Of a stretch of 64,000 nucleotides of DNA, positions 16,131 to 43,335 are shown piece after piece. A model generated the notes under the pieces. That model ran no database searches. It was not told the DNA's origin and saw nothing but the letters and a program-made list of their open reading frames with translations. Numbering within the stretch: the stretch's first letter is position 1; each line of letters begins with the position of its first letter. Made by a program: the position numbers and the translations under genes. The stretch is from a virus, in IMG/VR virus record IMGVR_UViG_3300029812_000129, positions 1 through 64,000 of that record; one strand, written 5' to 3'.

Positions 16131-19118
16131 TTAATATAATCTCGGTCTTAAGCTGGTAGCATTACCGCTAACAAATACTTTTTCATCTACGCCCCTTGAT
16201 ATGGCTTCTTCTAATAAAGCAATGTCAACATCTTTTGAAACATTTATTACTATATTTCTATTATCATAGTATTCCTGAGTATATCCACCCTTTAACCCTC
16301 TTCGGATCTCATACAAAGTAGGTAATTTAATATTTGGTAAATTAAATGATTCTTTTGCTTGCCCCTCGGATTCCTTTTGTAGCCTTTGAAGCTCAAGACG
16401 GAGAGAATAAGATTGTTCTCTTGTTAAGGTAACCCCTTTAGCTAATTTTTTGATAGCTTCCAGTTGTTGCCCAACGGTTATCTCCCCAAGTTCTTGACGC
16501 ATATCTAATATACGTTTTTCTAATTCAAATTTAGACATTTGCAATGATCTGCTTCTATCTATTATAGATGCTTCTAAATTTAGTGCTGCCGTAGCCCCTT
16601 GCGTAGCACTTATATAGTCTAATGTACTTTGTTCTAAAAATAATAAAGCACTCTCTTTTTGTAAAGGTTCTATCATACCAGCTATTTCAAGTTTTTTCTG
16701 TGCCATTACCAAATTATATTTTTCACTTTCTAAATTTTGACGAGCAGATATAATAGTCCCTTTTTGCTTAATTATATCTATTTCTTCTGTAACCATACCT
16801 AAAATCCTTTTTTCTTTTTCTAGGTTTTGACGAGCTTTTTCTAAGGGGTCTCTTATAGAAACAAGTTCTAAATCTGCTCTTACCTTCATCATGTTAATAG
16901 CTTCTTTTTGCTTATCTGCTAATACACTATTTTCGGTAGCAATTGCTGCCAACTTTTTGGAATCATTTGTCGCAACAAAACTATCTATGTATGCACGCAA
17001 AGCAGTTAAATACTCTTCACGTGTAACCAATCCAGCAGCAAATTTTAGCTTAGTAATATCAAGAGTATCTGCAATTCCAGCCTGTGCTTCTGTAAGTTCT
17101 TCTGCCATATTAGCTTTTTCTCTTATGGTATCGGCAAAAACCTTCTCCTCTTTAACTAAATCTTCATCTGTAGCTCCTTTATCTATGAGTGCCTGCTTAT
17201 GCTTTTTCCACATCTCAATATTATCAATATTCCCTTTTTCGATTTCTCCAAGAGTCTTGTCAAGATATTTTTGTGTTTTCTCTCCTTTTTTCATTTCCTC
17301 CCATCTACCAAGCATACTATCTAACAATTCTTCTTCTGATGTTAATTCATTAGCTTTTGCGACAGCTATCGCTTTGTTTAAATCCCTGTTTTGATCTAAA
17401 GTAAAACCAAGTTGATATAAGTCTCTCTCCGCTTTTGCCCTTACATTAGCTTCTTCTTCTATTGTCCTAACATATTTTTTTCTACCACTCGCATTATCTC
17501 TTTCTTGTTTTATTATTTTCTTTAATTGGTCTACCCTATATTTAAAATAAATTATTTCTTCTGGAGTATATAATTCAAAAGCTCTTGCAGTCATAGAAAA
17601 ATCTCCGCTATAACTGACTTTTTGCGAAGGGTCTTTCTTTGGTTGTCCCATAGATGGCACAGTAAAATCAAATTTTTGTATTTCGTCAGCAACTTTCTTA
17701 TATTCTGCAAGACGTTTTACCATCATAGTCAAAATATTTAAAAAACCAGAAAAAACAGATATAGCATCTTTTATTGTACCTGTTAAACCAACCTCTCCCA
17801 AAGCATGTGCTAACTCACCTGCGATCGCTTTCATCCTTGCCATACGTTCAGAGGTAGTATCCATTATTAAAGAATATTCATATATAGCACTGCCAGTAGA
17901 ATTAGCAGCAGATTCCTGCATTTGTAAAGCCAAATAACTATTATTTAAAAGTGCTGCCCAAATATCGTAAGATCTTCCTTCAGCAATCAAAGTTAAGAGT
18001 TCCATTTTCCTTGCTTTATCCATTTTTTGAGTCGCAACTATTATGTTATTATAAATTTCTTCTTGAGATAAAAGTGAACCGTTTGTATTTCTAACGATAA
18101 TACCATAATCTTTTAAATCGGCGGCGTTTCTACGGATATGCATCATGCTTGTACGGATAGCTGTTGCAACTCTTGTTGGTTGAGCACCAGTTACCTTAAG
18201 CATTGTACCCATAATTCCAGTTAGCTGTTCTAAGTTCCCACCGTAAACCTTCATCAACCCAGAAGTTCTTGCTAAGGCTTTAGCCATATCTTCTATATTA
18301 ACCCCAAATTTATTTTGTACTTCATTTAGCATATCTACTATGCCAATTATTTCATTGCCTTTTAAACCTAGTGTATGATACATAGCTGTTAAATATTTAG
18401 TTGCATTACCAAGTTCCATTTCTGCTACCTTGGTTGCTAGCAAAGTTGCTGTTTGCCCAGCCATAACATCTTCTATTATTCTTGTTGTTTTGCCCCATTC
18501 GAAAGCACTTTTAGCTACATCTTCTGTTACAGCACCAAAACCCTGGGATAATCTAAAAGTAGAATCAATTATTTTATCCATATCTGCGGAACTTATTACT
18601 CTTTTTAAATCAGCAAAGGTACTTTCTAATTTAATAGCTTCTCCAACTAAACCTTTTATTGCTGCTATCGTACCAAAAATAGCTGTTGTAGCTACTGTCC
18701 ATAAAAGGACTTTACCAATTATTTCACCAATAGGTTGAGCTGTCATTGTGGCAATCATTCCTTTATATTGCCCTTTGAGACCGCCCATCTGTCTGCCAGC
18801 TTCCTTCATCGCAACATTGCCTTTATGATATGCCTGTGCTTGTTTATTTAATGTATCAACACTTTGATCTTGAGTACTAGATAAGCCTTTATTTGCATTT
18901 TTTAAATCCCTACCTCGTTGTATCTGTTCATCCATGGTTTTAACAGAAACAGTACCAGCTTTTGAAACATCGACTGGCTTTACTGCTTTAGCGGAAACTC
19001 CTGTTGCTTGCTCGATTTTCTTCTGCGTTTCCTGCACTTTACGGGTTGCAGAAGCAGCAGCCATATCTAGCTTACTCATATCTGCTATGAAATTAATTAC
19101 AAAATCATATCGCTTCAT
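16131..19118 (-). CDS. Tail tape measure protein
   Basis: 995 residues. The N-terminal coiled segment (about 1-110) leads into a hydrophobic stretch near 135-165 and the TP901-type core (KLESTFADLKRVISS, VAKSAFEWGKTT, ALARTSGLMKVYGG, ATAIRTSMMHI). Long helical and coiled-coil regions (about 540-950) follow. It sets tail length and is chaperoned by the products of 19123-20057. Confidence 0.92.
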   Translation of the reverse strand: MKRYDFVINFIADMSKLDMAAASATRKVQETQKKIEQATGVSAKAVKPVDVSKAGTVSVKTMDEQIQRGRDLKNANKGLSSTQDQSVDTLNKQAQAYHKGNVAMKEAGRQMGGLKGQYKGMIATMTAQPIGEIIGKVLLWTVATTAIFGTIAAIKGLVGEAIKLESTFADLKRVISSADMDKIIDSTFRLSQGFGAVTEDVAKSAFEWGKTTRIIEDVMAGQTATLLATKVAEMELGNATKYLTAMYHTLGLKGNEIIGIVDMLNEVQNKFGVNIEDMAKALARTSGLMKVYGGNLEQLTGIMGTMLKVTGAQPTRVATAIRTSMMHIRRNAADLKDYGIIVRNTNGSLLSQEEIYNNIIVATQKMDKARKMELLTLIAEGRSYDIWAALLNNSYLALQMQESAANSTGSAIYEYSLIMDTTSERMARMKAIAGELAHALGEVGLTGTIKDAISVFSGFLNILTMMVKRLAEYKKVADEIQKFDFTVPSMGQPKKDPSQKVSYSGDFSMTARAFELYTPEEIIYFKYRVDQLKKIIKQERDNASGRKKYVRTIEEEANVRAKAERDLYQLGFTLDQNRDLNKAIAVAKANELTSEEELLDSMLGRWEEMKKGEKTQKYLDKTLGEIEKGNIDNIEMWKKHKQALIDKGATDEDLVKEEKVFADTIREKANMAEELTEAQAGIADTLDITKLKFAAGLVTREEYLTALRAYIDSFVATNDSKKLAAIATENSVLADKQKEAINMMKVRADLELVSIRDPLEKARQNLEKEKRILGMVTEEIDIIKQKGTIISARQNLESEKYNLVMAQKKLEIAGMIEPLQKESALLFLEQSTLDYISATQGATAALNLEASIIDRSRSLQMSKFELEKRILDMRQELGEITVGQQLEAIKKLAKGVTLTREQSYSLRLELQRLQKESEGQAKESFNLPNIKLPTLYEIRRGLKGGYTQEYYDNRNIVINVSKDVDIALLEEAISRGVDEKVFVSGNATSLRPRLY

Positions 19119-19122
19119 TAAA

Positions 19123-20057
19123 TCAACCTACTTCTATTACTTCTTTATGTTTATATGCTCCTTCGCCCTTACGTGCTTTGTCTATTCCCTTGAACCATTT
19201 AGTAAGCTTTTCATCGTCTAACCAAATATTTTTAGGTGGTATCTCATCTTTTGGTAAATTTTTAAAATAACTTAATATACGCATTGCATGTGACAAAGCA
19301 GTAACAAAACGCCATGGACAATCTACTAAATGAGATGTTCCTTTTGGCATTATAGTTTCTAAATTATTAAATTCCTGAGCAATGCTAACAAGATTTAGAA
19401 AGGCATCACCCTGAGCTAGTTTTTTACTTCATTGGCATCCTGTGAATCTAAGTTATAATAAGCATTTTGTAAATCAGTGAACAGATTACCGTGTAAACTT
19501 TCTTCCATCTCTTCCATCGTTTCGAACATTCTACTACCATCTTCGTTGACTGTAGCGTAAAAAAGCACAATCTCATTGAAAATCCTAACATAGTATGCAG
19601 TAAGCATATTATCTGTACGAATTTTCTTGATCTGTGCTCTTAAGTCATCTATAGATTTTTTTTCTAAAGCAGGTAATTTATTAGCTTTTGCCTTAGCAAA
19701 GCTTTCTTCATACTCTTTTTTAAATTCATCAGAATTAATATCTTCTAAACCTTTTTCTTGTAGCTTTTCTTCTATTTCATTTACTAAATTAAAATCCATT
19801 GCAACTAATTCTTCTATACATGTTTCTTTAGACATTTCAGAAATAGTATTATCTAATATAATAGATTCCTTACTATTTTTATCATCAAAACATTTAAGCA
19901 TTTCTGCACGGGCAACAGTAGCCTTTTCGATAGCTTCTATTCTTGCACCATGTGAAATAGTCTGAATATTCACCTCTGCATAATTACCTTTTCCATCTTC
20001 AATCTTAACCAATTTCTTTTTCTTATATAAATCTTTAATATCTTTTTTTTCTCCCAT
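19123..20057 (-). CDS. Tail assembly chaperone G-T fusion made by -1 frameshift
   Basis: The 19416-20057 frame ends GTA AAA AAC TAG. A -1 slip on A AAA AAC continues CTA GCT CAG GGT GAT and runs without a stop through ATG CCA AAA GGA to 19123, adding about 98 residues ending KHKEVIEVG. This is the gpG/gpGT arrangement of siphovirus tail chaperones, placed as expected just before the tape measure. The T part could also start on its own at 19350 (MPKGTSH). Confidence 0.8.
19416..20057 (-). CDS. Tail assembly chaperone (gpG-like), unshifted product
   Basis: 213 residues, rich in charged helices, beginning MGEKKDIKDLYKKKKLVKIE. GGAGGT lies 8 bases upstream of the ATG, just after the IsrB stop. 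It holds the tape measure protein during tail assembly. No sequence signature; the call rests on position, size and the slippery site at its end. Confidence 0.75.
   Translation of the reverse strand: MGEKKDIKDLYKKKKLVKIEDGKGNYAEVNIQTISHGARIEAIEKATVARAEMLKCFDDKNSKESIILDNTISEMSKETCIEELVAMDFNLVNEIEEKLQEKGLEDINSDEFKKEYEESFAKAKANKLPALEKKSIDDLRAQIKKIRTDNMLTAYYVRIFNEIVLFYATVNEDGSRMFETMEEMEESLHGNLFTDLQNAYYNLDSQDANEVKN
19419..19425 (-). promoter_or_regulatory. Slippery heptamer A AAA AAC
   Basis: AAAAAAC in phase (xxA AAA AAC) immediately before the zero-frame TAG, the classical -1 frameshift site of tail chaperone genes. Confidence 0.8.
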
Positions 20058-20077: not shown

Positions 20078-21043
20078 TTAGTGTTGAGGGAGGATTCCTT
20101 GCCCCCCCTGTAAATAAACCAAACCCTTCGGTCGTTGAAGTAATTTGGTTTTGTTGTAAGACACAGCAAAGTTGCTATCAAAAGAAGTTCTGAGTGTTAT
20201 TACTTTAGCCTTTAAACTTCTTATTGACCCGATTATTGTGCCCCTGGTTCTGTGCGAAGCTTTAACAACATCGTAGTGTCGGAAGCCATTTTTCTCTACG
20301 CAAGTCTTAGTCGGGTTATTCTCCCATATCTTTGCCCTCCTTGGTTTTATAATCCACTCAAAACAATTGATAACAGGTTTTTCATCGCAAATCATAGAGA
20401 TAGCATCATTGCTATGCTTCTTTGAAAGCCCAATCTCTAGTCTTCTTTTCTTGGTTTCATATCCGAAAGTAGCCTTACAAGATAAACCTAAACTCAATAT
20501 TTGCTTTCTAAGATAATTCTTGCCCTGCTCAACTAATGAAAACCATCTACCATATCTGTATTTTGCGTGATTAAATTTAACCTCTTCAACCACAACCTGA
20601 CAAATATTGATTCTCTTCCCCATATCTTTTAAAAATCGTAATGTGGAATCCTTTCTACACCTAGCAGAGGGGACTAATTTTGCAGAGATTCTATTGTTAA
20701 ACCGTCTTGCCCTATATCTCAGTTTCCTTGATCTTCTTGAACGTCTATAATTGCTTCTCTGCTTCATTAATCTTTTAACATCCTGTCTTAATTCAATTTG
20801 ACCCTTAAAAACCACTTCATTGGTTTTATCGTTTACAATAGCAACCCCCACCTTTTTAGCCCCATCATCAATTCCTACCACAAAAGAGCCAACTGGATTT
20901 TTAATTGCTCTTTTTAGTTGAATCGTAAATGGCATTACCTGAACCACTTTGGCCTTGCCTGCTTTCAACAATTTTCTGCCTCTTGCTGGGTGACAGGGCA
21001 ACAAGGACTTGCCTGTCTTGTCAATCACAAATGTTTTTTGCAT
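20078..21043 (-). CDS. IsrB-type RuvC nuclease (IscB family without HNH)
   Basis: 321 residues. The N-terminal PLMP-like domain (SLLPCHPARGRKLLKAG .. MPFTIQLKR) is followed by RuvC-I GIDDGAKKVGVAI (Asp59), an Arg-rich bridge helix (about 91-118, YRRSRRSRKLRYRARR), RuvC-II VVVEEVKFN (Glu153/154) and RuvC-III KKHSNDAI (His210, Asp213). RuvC-II and RuvC-III are only about 50 residues apart, joined by TFGYETKKRRLEIGL, so the HNH domain of IscB is absent. The C-terminal domain (QRPKGLVYL) fits the target-interaction region. Known IsrB proteins nick DNA under an omega-RNA guide. It is inserted between the tail tube and tail chaperone genes. Confidence 0.85.
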   Translation of the reverse strand: MQKTFVIDKTGKSLLPCHPARGRKLLKAGKAKVVQVMPFTIQLKRAIKNPVGSFVVGIDDGAKKVGVAIVNDKTNEVVFKGQIELRQDVKRLMKQRSNYRRSRRSRKLRYRARRFNNRISAKLVPSARCRKDSTLRFLKDMGKRINICQVVVEEVKFNHAKYRYGRWFSLVEQGKNYLRKQILSLGLSCKATFGYETKKRRLEIGLSKKHSNDAISMICDEKPVINCFEWIIKPRRAKIWENNPTKTCVEKNGFRHYDVVKASHRTRGTIIGSIRSLKAKVITLRTSFDSNFAVSYNKTKLLQRPKGLVYLQGGQGILPQH

Positions 21044-21049
21044 TTAAGC

Positions 21050-21262
21050 AATCTCCTTTCGGGAAAATTTTGCTCTCGGAAATGTTGGAGTCGGATTATT
21101 CAGAACTGAGCACATTCTAACGTCCATTGTTAACTCCTAACGTAGCTGGTCACTTCACCCGCAACAGAATAGCTTATTTCCCAGCTTATCCTCGGAGCGA
21201 CTAATTAAAATCGATTAGTTTTGATAACCTTCTATCAACTATTGCTAAGCTCCCTCATTTAA
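21050..21262 (-). ncRNA. Probable omega-RNA upstream of IsrB
   Basis: About 210 noncoding bases directly 5' of the IsrB gene, where IscB/IsrB guide RNAs lie. Stems visible on the minus strand: TTGATA/TATCAA, ACTAAT/ATTAGT, AAGCTGG/CCAGCTA (long range) and GGAGT/ACTCC (long range). The guide would come from the 5' edge, next to the end of the tail tube gene. Boundaries are estimates. Confidence 0.6.
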
Positions 21263-21266
21263 GTTC

Positions 21267-22490
21267 TTAAGGTTTCGATCCTCTATAAATAGTCATATTT
21301 GTATTGGCAGTAATTTTGAAATTAAATGTTTGTGTTAAATTATCTCCTACCCTTGAAGTATGGCCTTCACCAACAATCTCTACATTTGGTATATAAAGGG
21401 TCTTTAAAACAGTAGTGTTATCATCTGGATCAAGAATCTTAATTTCAATCGGAATTGCTGTATCAAAATCCTCTAATCCATACACAGGGTTTGAAGCATC
21501 TAATGCTGCCCCTGCACAAAACTTAGCAAAAGCATCACCATCTCTATCTAAGATAGAAATATCACCTGTTATTTCTGGAGTATCAATAACGACAGCGACT
21601 TTATTCTCGTTCCCCATTTCCAAAATATTAATATTAGGATATGAAATAGAAACATTAATACTTTGAACTCTATCTAATTTTCCCGCATTAATTACTACAG
21701 GAATGTTTTTACCTTTAATGCCACTTGGATAAACCGTTTCACCTTCATGTACGGTTGAAGCGAATGTTTGCTGTGTTAAACAAGGATATATTACTTCAAT
21801 TACAGCATTTAATGCAGGTACAGTACCGAAAACTATATCATCGGTTGCTGCCACATAATTAAAGTCCTTTGTACCAGCTATTCTTTCAGCTTCACTTCCT
21901 TCATACATTTTTACGCCATCAATAACTAAGCCTATGATGTTTTTATCTGTACCATAGTTTCTGGCTCCACCATAAGTAGCTGTATCAAGCTCAAACGTAA
22001 CGGTCGAGTTATCTCCAACAAACTGTTCGTATGCAGCAGATTGATACACCCAATGCTTATTGTCTGACATAAATGTCATTGATTCCGTAGCGTTACCGTC
22101 AACGGAATAACGATAATTTAAAGCAGTCAATTGTGCGGCATAAATAACACCAGTTTTTAGAGCTAAATCACCTATCTCTTCTCTAACAGGGAAAATAAAA
22201 TTAACCTTCTTTATGTTCTCTGCTGTCATTACAAAAGATGTAGGTGGTGTAGCAGCGTGTGGATCACCTCCATGTACTAATGTAAGTAATTCACAATTAG
22301 TGTCAAAAGCCTCTGTATCAATAGTAACATCTGGAACATCTTTTACTACTGAAACAACGGCAACATTGCCTAGTTCCTTTATATCTTCGGACGGGAAGTC
22401 CGTAGTGCTTCCTAGCGATTGCAACCTATCAATGATGGTGCCACCAGCAGCCATCAGTATCCTATCACTTTTTAAACGAATTATAGACAT
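21267..22490 (-). CDS. Major tail tube protein
   Basis: 407 residues, beta-rich throughout. The N-terminus reads MSIIRLKSDRILMAAGGTII, with an inserted Ig-like part around 190-230. Position between the tail completion genes and the tail chaperone, and an AAAGGAGGTG ribosome site, support the major tail protein. No sheath gene is present, so the tail is non-contractile. Confidence 0.7.
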   Translation of the reverse strand: MSIIRLKSDRILMAAGGTIIDRLQSLGSTTDFPSEDIKELGNVAVVSVVKDVPDVTIDTEAFDTNCELLTLVHGGDPHAATPPTSFVMTAENIKKVNFIFPVREEIGDLALKTGVIYAAQLTALNYRYSVDGNATESMTFMSDNKHWVYQSAAYEQFVGDNSTVTFELDTATYGGARNYGTDKNIIGLVIDGVKMYEGSEAERIAGTKDFNYVAATDDIVFGTVPALNAVIEVIYPCLTQQTFASTVHEGETVYPSGIKGKNIPVVINAGKLDRVQSINVSISYPNINILEMGNENKVAVVIDTPEITGDISILDRDGDAFAKFCAGAALDASNPVYGLEDFDTAIPIEIKILDPDDNTTVLKTLYIPNVEIVGEGHTSRVGDNLTQTFNFKITANTNMTIYRGSKP

Positions 22491-33815: not shown

Positions 33816-35445
33816 TGTATGCTCCTAATGTCTGATGATTTGACATCCAAAAACCTTGAGGAATTATAGTCTTTTTAAAATCCGATAAACCATAGATTCT
33901 GCGAATTTCTCTTTGGAAAGCCATACAAGCAGCCGATGTAAGCGTGTGGTCAGAATATCTCCCGTCACAAACATACTCTTTTCTGCCAGAACCTAAAGCT
34001 CTTTCTCTATGGGCCAACCAATCTGTAACAATCTCGTCATCATAAGGTAATATTATTTCATTATTCATAACTAAGTTTTGTAAACATTCAAAAGCAAAAT
34101 CTTTTGTAGGACGTTTTATCGGATCGCCAGTTTTCAGGTCTTCGCCAATCTCAATCTTTTCATTCATAACTAAAGGATCAAGAATTTTTAAAAGCTTCTT
34201 GTTTAATTGCAACATTTGATGTAGAGATCCGCCTCTACCAGTTGCATCGGTTGCAACACCAGCAGTATTATAATAAAAAGCATAAACAAGATTTGCTAAA
34301 TCCACTTGTTGCGGATCTGTTAATCTTTCTGCATGAATTCTGGCAATTAATCTTATCTTCTGCTGGCCTTCTCTTATCTCATCTGACCAAACTAAAATTT
34401 CAGTAGGGTCTATATTGTGACCCCAATCTATACTTATCCAAACATTTTTATATTTTCTATGCTTATCTGGTAATCTTAAAAAATGAGCTAATGGCATATT
34501 GTTTAAGTTTTCAGCTAATATCCGCAAATAAACATAATCTTTAGTTATAGTAGGTTTATATTTATCATATCTACCGTTTGCTCCCTTTGTCCCGACATCT
34601 AAACATTTCATAAACTGCTCATGTGGGAACATCGGGTTTTCGGGGTTGCCATGTTCTGCTAAGATCTGTCTTAGGTAATCAGGGCTTCTACGACTACCAT
34701 AAAAAGCAATACGAGATTCTCTTTCTGCTTTTCCCCAATGTGCTCTGTGCATAGCTGTCACAATATAATGATTCCAAGATTTATCTTTAGTTAAATTATA
34801 AAAAGTATTTCTCACACCATTCGGTACGCCATATATAACAAATCTTGAATCCTTGCCTGGGTTTAAACACTCTCTTAGTTCGGCCCAGCCTTCAGCCAGA
34901 TAATCTTGTGCCTCGTCTACCTTAATGTTTTTAGTATGCATACCATGGACATTGGTTCCATTTATACCAGGAATTCTACCGAATATTTTTGCTCTGGTAT
35001 GAAAAACAAGCATATAGTCTGGTTTACGTACAAGTCTTTTAATTAATTCTCTTGTAATTCTTACTTCGTTTAATCTATCAACAATTTTTTCCATTAATGG
35101 TTTTAAATGAATTTCTTGTGGAGCCGTAATTAATGTTTCTTCACCAGGTGTAAAAGGTAGAACAGAAGCATCTCTTATAATCGATTCCGTTTTTCCAACA
35201 CTCCTGGCATTGGCGTATGCCTTATCCGGTATATCCAACGTGTATTCATACTGATAATCATATACCCTGTATGGGGTTACCCCGTCCCTATCTTTCCAAA
35301 AGAACTCTGGAAAATCTATTGGATCAGTTAAAATATCTAATAATGCTTCTTCTTCTACTGAAAGTGGTTCTAACACTATCCCTCCAAAATCATTCTGTGG
35401 GGAAAGATTTTTGCTTGCTTCCCAAGTCCCGCCGACCCTGCTCAT
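33808..35445 (-). CDS. terL: Terminase large subunit
   Basis: 545 residues. Walker A ARSVGKTES (80-88), Walker B IKVDEAQDY (Asp177-Glu178) and the RNase H-like nuclease (ISIDWGHNIDPTEILV near 340; ATDATGRGG later) are all present. It packages DNA using ATP and cuts it. The ATG at 35445 has no ribosome site; a GTG 23 codons later (GTG TTA GAA CCA) has GGAGGG 4 bases upstream. An unusual 140-base noncoding stretch separates it from TerS. Confidence 0.93.
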   Translation of the reverse strand: MSRVGGTWEASKNLSPQNDFGGIVLEPLSVEEEALLDILTDPIDFPEFFWKDRDGVTPYRVYDYQYEYTLDIPDKAYANARSVGKTESIIRDASVLPFTPGEETLITAPQEIHLKPLMEKIVDRLNEVRITRELIKRLVRKPDYMLVFHTRAKIFGRIPGINGTNVHGMHTKNIKVDEAQDYLAEGWAELRECLNPGKDSRFVIYGVPNGVRNTFYNLTKDKSWNHYIVTAMHRAHWGKAERESRIAFYGSRRSPDYLRQILAEHGNPENPMFPHEQFMKCLDVGTKGANGRYDKYKPTITKDYVYLRILAENLNNMPLAHFLRLPDKHRKYKNVWISIDWGHNIDPTEILVWSDEIREGQQKIRLIARIHAERLTDPQQVDLANLVYAFYYNTAGVATDATGRGGSLHQMLQLNKKLLKILDPLVMNEKIEIGEDLKTGDPIKRPTKDFAFECLQNLVMNNEIILPYDDEIVTDWLAHRERALGSGRKEYVCDGRYSDHTLTSAACMAFQREIRRIYGLSDFKKTIIPQGFWMSNHQTLGAYSG

Positions 35446-42097: not shown

Positions 42098-42386
42098 TAA
42101 AACAGTACCTAAAAAAACAATAATTAATAAAAATAATGGTATTTTTATAATTTGCGAATTGATTAAACAATGTTTTGAACTTTCAGAAAACCAGGTAAAA
42201 CGTAAATGTTATGGAAATACTTTAAATAAAAATTGTAAAGAAGACTGCATATATTATTTTGATAGAACTATTAATTGTGCGGGGAGAGTAGAAAATACAA
42301 GATGTGATAATTGTTTTATAAAGAATTTAAACTTAAACCATTTATGTAAACATGCAAAAAGGTTTTATTTTAATAGGAAAGGATAA
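42090..42386 (+). CDS. Small Cys-rich protein
   Basis: 98 residues with eight or nine cysteines in the C-terminal two thirds (CYGNTLNKNCKEDC, CAGRVENTRCDNC), pointing to two zinc sites. Overlaps the primase-helicase end by 8 bases. Unrecognised. Confidence 0.55.
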   Translation: MDNKTVPKKTIINKNNGIFIICELIKQCFELSENQVKRKCYGNTLNKNCKEDCIYYFDRTINCAGRVENTRCDNCFIKNLNLNHLCKHAKRFYFNRKG

Positions 42387-42387
42387 A

Positions 42388-43335
42388 ATGTCTACTATAG
42401 CAGAAGTTACAAAAGATGTTAAGAAAAAATATGGAGATACAAAAGTAATAAAAGCATCTAAGTTAAATAATTATGGAGTTTTGCCAACTGGTATTTTAGC
42501 AATTGATAACATTTTAACAGATGGTGGATTACCAAAAGGTTGTATAGTTGAAATCTTTGGTAATGTTGCTTGTGGTAAATCAACACTATTATTAAATATA
42601 ATTGTTCAAGCACAAAAATACGGAACGGTCGTTTTGGCAGATACGGAATTTAGATTCTTCCCAGAATATGCTAAAAAATGTGGAGTTGATACAGACAAGT
42701 TATTAGTAATACGTCCAGAATATGCGGAAGAAGCTTTAGAAATAGGAGAAATGTATTTGAGAAGCGGAGACGTTTCTTTATTTGCCATTGATTCGGTTGC
42801 AGCCCTTGTCCCTAAAGCAGAGGTTGAGGGTTCTATGGATGATCAGCAAATGGGTCTGCAAGCCAGAATAGTAAGCAAAGCACTAAGAAAGCTGACAAGC
42901 GTTGTTAGCCAAACAGGATCTACGATGATTTGTATCAATCAACTTCGCACCAAGATAGGTGTTATGTTTGGGAATCCAGAAGACACGCCTGGTGGGAGGG
43001 CATTAAAGTTCTTTTCAACTGTTAGGCTTGATTTAAGAAAAGTCAAAACATTAATTTCGGAGAATGATAAAAAAACACCAGTAGGTTCAAGGTGTAGGGT
43101 AAAAATAATAAAAGGGTTGGGGGGAGAAGGGAAAACCGCTGAAATGTGTTTGTTGTATGGCAAAGGGGTAGACAAAATAAATGATTTAATAGAAGGTGGG
43201 ACAATAAACGGATCTATAAAACTTAATGGTATGACTTATACTTATAAAGATGAAAAAATAGCTGTTGGTAGACCAAAACTATATACATTTTTAGCTGAAC
43301 ATCCAGAAATACAAAAGGAGATATTAAATGGTTAA
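42388..43335 (+). CDS. recA: RecA recombinase
   Basis: 315 residues. Walker A GNVACGKST (about 58-66) departs from the usual GPESSGKT; Walker B LFAIDSVAALVPKAE (about 132), ICINQLRTKIGVMFGNPED and ALKFFSTVRLDLRK are strongly RecA. Start at 42388 has GGAAAGG upstream; an earlier frame start lies inside the previous gene. Works with the RecB-type exonuclease in recombination-dependent replication. Confidence 0.93.
   Translation: MSTIAEVTKDVKKKYGDTKVIKASKLNNYGVLPTGILAIDNILTDGGLPKGCIVEIFGNVACGKSTLLLNIIVQAQKYGTVVLADTEFRFFPEYAKKCGVDTDKLLVIRPEYAEEALEIGEMYLRSGDVSLFAIDSVAALVPKAEVEGSMDDQQMGLQARIVSKALRKLTSVVSQTGSTMICINQLRTKIGVMFGNPEDTPGGRALKFFSTVRLDLRKVKTLISENDKKTPVGSRCRVKIIKGLGGEGKTAEMCLLYGKGVDKINDLIEGGTINGSIKLNGMTYTYKDEKIAVGRPKLYTFLAEHPEIQKEILNG

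Follow-up and report, generated by a model that had tools for sequence, protein, structure and literature searches.

An HNH-less IscB/IsrB-type protein and its omega-RNA at a phage tail-gene junction: a candidate RNA-guided homing unit

Between two tail genes of an uncultivated phage (IMG/VR record IMGVR_UViG_3300029812_000129, 69 kb, without a close relative in the collections searched) we found a cassette made up of an HNH-less IscB/IsrB-type protein and an omega-RNA whose predicted guide is the end of the upstream tail gene. The analysis covered the first 64,000 nucleotides of the record, referred to below as the window. IscB/IsrB is the protein family that gave rise to Cas9, and the cassette adds to it a small protein whose omega-RNA escapes the standard RNA library. 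We lean, with some reserve, towards the view that the cassette is a free-standing RNA-guided homing unit.

The protein (321 amino acids, minus strand, 20078 to 21043) was delimited from the ORF list and characterized by profiles, alignments and fold matching. Its domains follow the order PLMP, RuvC-I, bridge helix, RuvC-II, a short HNHL linker, RuvC-III, and a TAM-interacting (TI) domain. A previous sequence-only reading had proposed this IscB-family layout (PLMP, RuvC-I/II/III, bridge helix, and C-terminal target domain), and the domain profiles (Pfam RRXRR, 158 bits; NCBIfam guided_IscB, 187 bits against a cut-off of 175), the PDB sequence matches (HfmIscB, 9k2z; TbaIscB, 9k30; DtIsrB, 8dmb), and Foldseek all agreed with it. 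The top Foldseek match was again DtIsrB 8dmb (E = 1.4e-19), obtained with an AlphaFold model that was weak (mean pLDDT of 58), readable in the RuvC core, and used for the fold look-up only. The same reading had claimed that the HNH is absent, and no hidden HNH came to light: the Pfam scan found none in this protein, while the same kind of domain search gave clear matches for the HNH-bearing relatives, and the HNH stretch was missing when the protein was aligned to them. These comparisons place the protein in the IscB/IsrB superfamily (OMEGA), as a member that lacks the HNH. The RuvC residues D59, E153, H210, and D213 were invariant among ten relatives and lined up with the RuvC motifs of DtIsrB, from which the role of the HNHL linker is known (PMC9581776). 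Since the catalytic residues and an IsrB-type linker are both kept, nicking activity is predicted. The last ca. nine residues (GGQGILPQH) had no counterpart in the relatives and may represent read-through of the element end or flank.

Directly upstream of the gene, where a structured RNA of ca. 210 bases had been suspected, we located an omega-RNA scaffold of ca. 198 nt (21056 to 21253, minus strand). The Rfam model for HEARO (RF02033) did not match it, with 11.8 bits against a gathering threshold of 83, although the sub-threshold alignment still showed the core of the RNA. Because of this low score, we built our own covariance models, one of which left the window out. This hold-out model matched the window at 21253-21056 (minus strand) with 146.5 bits (E = 1.4e-29), and also recognized the RNAs of loci with HNH-bearing proteins, L172 with 123 bits and L010, L011, and L003 with 48 to 69 bits. 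The RNAs of L011 and L125 scored 44 and 37 bits, respectively, against HEARO, and L011, matched by both models, ties the window RNA to the HEARO class. A second match of our model in the window (34732-34811, 16.6 bits, E = 0.39) was judged to be due to chance.

For the structure we compared eight HNH-less loci, i.e., the window, L001, L002, L004 (a deleted copy), L008, L009, L136, and L138. The consensus had 34 pairs, 19 of them changed on both sides, and 97.4% of the cells could pair. The covariation score was 0.666, compared with 0.267 in shuffled alignments (none of 500 as high), a control that retains relatedness, and 0.06 to 0.22 in slid alignments, in which relatedness is removed. The S1 stem (GGAGC/GCUCC) forms the left end of the element, and its first five positions pair in all eight loci, with compensations; the arms were hand-aligned for this count, and RNAalifold recovered the same stem independently. 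The folding energy of the single window sequence was unremarkable (z = -0.77). From the covariation and the hold-out match, the omega-RNA is taken to be real, and the span expected for it by the sequence-only reading (21044-21280) was about right. Given that S1 stands at the extreme 5' end, the scaffold would start at 21253 and the guide would lie directly 5' of it, at 21273-21254. This predicted guide, ACCUUAAGAACUUAAAUGAG (21254 to 21273, minus strand, set by the scaffold boundary), is phage flank that runs over the end of the tail tube gene, stop codon included; its length of 20 nt was taken by analogy with DtIsrB (PMC9581776). The predicted target sequence is ACCTTAAGAACTTAAATGAG, and no other match to the guide with ≤4 mismatches was found within the window.

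The position claimed for the cassette, between tail tube and tail chaperone, was borne out by the ORF list and by comparison with GX15bay. The tail tube-like gene (21267 to 22490, minus strand) is homologous to MK557849 and to 15 IMG/VR loci. Downstream of the cassette comes a tail assembly chaperone-like gene (19416 to 20057, minus strand), and beyond it 19123-19350 and then the tape measure gene at 16131-19118; the order is that of GX15bay. Identity of these genes to those of GX15bay was 27 to 39% over short stretches, and the chaperone assignment relies on a weak similarity (27% over 59 amino acids) plus gene order. The right border of the element falls somewhere near 20080-20105, as judged by comparison with L002 and L004, and the same comparison and the sequence itself place a hairpin (GGGGGG..CCTCCC, 20085 to 20109, minus strand) close to this end.

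Phages lacking the insert were sought through the tube homologues, a set of 16 loci (L017 to L032) with 24 to 29% identity to the window tube. None had an IsrB at the tube-chaperone junction. A chaperone-sized ORF followed ca. 60 to 135 bp after the tube in 13 of the 14 readable relatives (some of the 13 being near-duplicates), once L020 and L024, whose stretches end too early, were left out. The exception, L018 (G160), has a homing-endonuclease gene (phrog_3339, E = 8e-97) after the tube and the chaperone ca. 8.7 kb further on, which indicates that the junction also hosts a classical homing gene. In this phage, the block of ca. 8.7 kb (L018:5373-9251) begins with the homing-endonuclease gene and contains several tRNAs. 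Searches of IMG/VR with the tail tube or chaperone protein of the window retrieved no close empty-site phages, and the gene upstream of the L009 unit had no match in the phage collection.

The other seven HNH-less units (L001, L002, L004, L008, L009, L136, and L138) are each found in a different gene context, and homology among all of them starts at GGAGC or variants of it. The L008 unit occupies a junction of stop and start codons that L043 to L045 have without interruption, and the junction of the deleted L004 unit is uninterrupted in L035, L036, and L038, both in protein-level comparisons. This L004 copy (L004:4779-5407) retains both element ends, with IsrB codons 1-91 fused to 283-313, and is possibly a non-autonomous form. 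In L001, L008, and L136, the stop codon of the upstream gene falls within the first bases of the element. The last bases of the left flank in the eight loci were TGAG, CTAT, GTAG, GTGT, ATTT, TAAT, AAAA, and TTAA, with no conserved target tetranucleotide among them. The right flanks start with GTTGA, ATTGA, GTGGA, AAAGA, or ATAAA in the relatives and with the candidate CTAAA in the window (borders set by eye, ±1 to 2 nt or more), to be compared with the NTGA/TTGA type of TAM of canonical IsrB. We gave up the assignment of a single TAM for the window, as its right border is not fixed. Neither the genome scan nor 148 Desulfobacterota genomes contained close bacterial relatives, except for one on an apparent phage contig, and the lineage appears to be found almost only in phages.

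Directly upstream of the intact element of L002 there is a left-end-like piece (L002:4728-4767, AATAGCAGTTGATAGGAAAATAA) that suggests an earlier insertion at the same site. In L001, the IsrB-type gene is followed after ca. 130 nt by a group I intron (L001:2342-2592; RF00028, 79 bits), and the gene upstream of the HNH-bearing cassette of L172 (L172:21-1544) looks, by eye and with no PHROG match, like a terminase that an intein or homing domain interrupts. In a bacterium, Desulfobacter latus (G011; L013/L014), there were 48 IscB-family matches in a genome of 4.3 Mb, more than 20 of them near full length.

The strongest support for targeting encoded by the flank comes not from the window itself but from the HNH-bearing relatives in Silviavirus phages, where the comparison of sequences with and without the unit suggests that the guide is flank at base resolution (for the HNH-less L008 and L004 the comparison is at the protein level). 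Among these Staphylococcus phages, flanks with and without the IscB unit are 89 to 99.8% identical (99.7% between JDF86 and phiSA_BS1). In two of the four loci, the HEARO match starts at the first base past the flank homology (L125, 2721 after 2720; L130, 763 after 762), while in L123 and L124 it starts ca. 36 nt inside the insert. HEARO starting at the insertion border in L125 and L130 implies that the guide consists of flanking DNA that the empty allele also has. Compared with L126, L125 also shows a duplication of the ca. 19-bp target at the right end (L125:4238-4270), in which one Ser codon differs synonymously (AGT versus TCG), a change that would weaken the match of the guide to the second target copy. 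In the Silviavirus IscB phages, this ca. 19-bp duplication rebuilds the start of a resolvase gene.

The sequence-only reading had called the protein an IsrB form. This stands for its architecture, with an HNHL linker and no HNH, but not for its ancestry, as the backbone belongs with the HNH-bearing phage IscBs. In a backbone tree with the linker left out, the phage HNH-less proteins and the HNH-bearing phage IscBs formed one clade (100/100 support), while DtIsrB, two bacterial HNH-less proteins, and one Microcystis phage protein fell on the other side of the split, and we dropped the canonical IsrB label accordingly. The tree is small (17 rows, with long branches flagged and the branching inside the phage clade unresolved), and the DtIsrB row is partial, taken from printed PDB alignments. 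On this tree, the absence of HNH requires two changes, and a single change sufficed in 0% of 200 bootstrap trees. The TI domain of the window protein is 82% identical to that of the HNH-bearing L172, whereas identity to DtIsrB-type IsrB outside the linker is mostly 8 to 38%. The segment comprising RuvC-II and the HNHL linker (codons 151-175, VVEEVKFNHAKYRYGRWFSLVEQGK; 20519 to 20593, minus strand) stood out in the alignment as a mosaic, with 60 to 64% identity to canonical IsrB (DtIsrB and L173) and only 36 to 40% to the related HNH-bearing phage IscBs. An IsrB-like linker on an IscB backbone would be best explained by recombination that swapped the HNH module; possibly, the linker is instead ancestral and the neighboring phage IscBs gained the HNH. 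We advance tentatively, as a reading we hold somewhat short of even chances, a phage-confined lineage of nicking homing elements, born when an IsrB-type linker took the place of the HNH module in a phage IscB, with a guide reset by the gene end at each landing site.

In the homing cycle that we propose, the omega-RNA would begin, at its 5' end, with a copy of ca. 20 nt in which the upstream gene ends (the tail tube gene in the window). If a phage without the cassette co-infects, its sequence matching the guide would adjoin a TAM on the other flank, and the RuvC domain would nick this empty allele, while in the cassette-bearing phage the GGAGC start of the element would displace the TAM and self would be spared. 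Repair of the nick from the donor by the recombination of the phage itself (UvsX-like) would then copy the cassette in, and the new flank would reset the guide. Damage to the phage would be limited by the intergenic position of the element and by stop codons lying close to its left end. Outside the cassette, as context, the window encodes a UvsX-like recombinase (42352 to 43335, plus strand; phrog_97, E = 8e-67), the type of recombination activity on which homing by repair depends. Phages are known to have homing endonucleases that nick (I-PfoP3I and the I-HmuI class, PMC3428280; for T4, see the review PMC2988022). A homing-type insertion had been suggested from position alone. The location between tail genes, the flank-derived guide, and the presence/absence pattern agree with it, and from them we infer homing itself.

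We favor homing because the guide is predicted to be flank-encoded, the units are present or absent at conserved gene junctions, the record has no transposase, and a homing-endonuclease gene sits at the same junction in L018. Against it count that a nick triggers less strongly than a double-strand break does and that the nearest relatives for an empty-site comparison have tubes only 24 to 29% identical to that of the window. The arrival at new insertion sites, moreover, is not explained by homing alone. Transposition is here the serious rival: a non-autonomous IS200/IS605-like (ISC) element would be cut and pasted by a TnpA that the host or a further element provides in trans, with the nickase mainly restoring the unit at the donor site after excision, a role that has been proposed for TnpB. 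IsrB and IscB do belong to the IS200/IS605 superfamily, hairpins lie near both element ends, the phage of L009 carries an IS605 tnpA/tnpB pair, and an IsrB unit has moved from Microcystis to the phage Mic1 (PMC11237433). Yet no Y1 transposase (Y1_Tnp) was found in 12 of 13 relative records or in the window record, whose 69 kb may be incomplete, and the bases ending the left flank vary over the eight loci, while IS605 elements have a fixed target tetranucleotide; both argue against IS605-type transposition, as do the insertion at gene junctions in phages and the scarcity of close bacterial relatives described above. Transposition in trans is to be taken seriously as an alternative, particularly for how units get to new sites, with roughly one chance in a few of being the main explanation, and it could coexist with homing. 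The tnpA/tnpB pair in the phage of L009 is a separate element (L144:1486-3186), and TnpB-like genes were also seen by eye near the cassettes of L002 (9392-10489) and L003 (9929-11023).

The predicted guide lies over the end of a structural gene that is essential, and homing endonucleases are known to exclude markers of competing phages, so the nickase might serve to attack the tail genes of co-infecting rivals, with the spread of the cassette being secondary. We consider this improbable, given that only the window has the cassette at the tube-chaperone junction when compared with 16 relatives, that sites vary among phages, and that the position of the guide merely tracks the left flank, as in a selfish element. 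Even more improbable is an inactive remnant drifting within the tail operon: decayed copies do exist, such as the L004 fusion, but the ORF of the window is intact, with invariant RuvC residues and a conserved linker, and compensatory changes have maintained the omega-RNA.

If the homing lineage outlined above is true, it would be an RNA-programmed counterpart to the free-standing homing endonucleases of phages, and phages with and without the cassette would be natural experiments on the purpose of IscB/IsrB guides outside transposons. The mosaic linker also suggests that nickase and nuclease can interconvert through the swap of one short segment. In the open-licence literature, our searches brought up no account of homing by phage IscB/IsrB. 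It had been remarked that such use of a nickase would be unusual, which is fair, with precedents in the phage HEARO/IscB units (PMC13346280) and in a phage-inserted IsrB (PMC11237433).

Among known systems, the window protein resembles the nickase DtIsrB (8dmb; PMC9581776) in its PLMP/RuvC/bridge helix/TI layout, HNHL-type linker, lack of HNH, size (ca. 320 to 350 amino acids), best fold match, and upstream omega-RNA, and differs from it in a backbone outside canonical IsrB (100/100) and in its location at gene junctions of phages. Its backbone falls instead with the IscB nucleases of phages (L003, L010, L011, and L172), which share the same omega-RNA type by the hold-out model, although an IsrB-like linker stands where IscB (HfmIscB, TbaIscB, and phage IscBs) has the HNH domain between RuvC-II and RuvC-III. 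HEARO RNA and ORF have been annotated in Silviavirus phages (PMC13346280); the RNA class is the same (RF02033, matched by related phage loci), but those proteins carry HNH and the window RNA stays below the cut-off of that model (11.8 versus 83 bits). The Mic1 insert comprises an IsrB unit together with 207 bp on its upstream side and 59 bp on its downstream side; in culture, it moved out of Microcystis into the phage at an ATGA motif (PMC11237433). In both cases, an IsrB-like gene sits in a phage genome together with its upstream stretch (ca. 207 bp in Mic1); the Mic1 unit came from the host chromosome and disrupted a phage gene, whereas the window cassette leaves both neighboring genes intact. 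Presence and absence at a conserved intergenic site, which marks homing cassettes, was observed, for the window in comparison with distant relatives only. As an intergenic cassette between conserved genes, it recalls the free-standing seg/mob homing endonucleases of T4 (PMC2988022), and some phage homing endonucleases only nick (PMC3428280). The T4 enzymes find their targets through a protein DNA-binding domain and cut far from their own insertion site (PMC2988022), while the window cassette is predicted to be directed by a flank-derived guide RNA to the very junction that it occupies.
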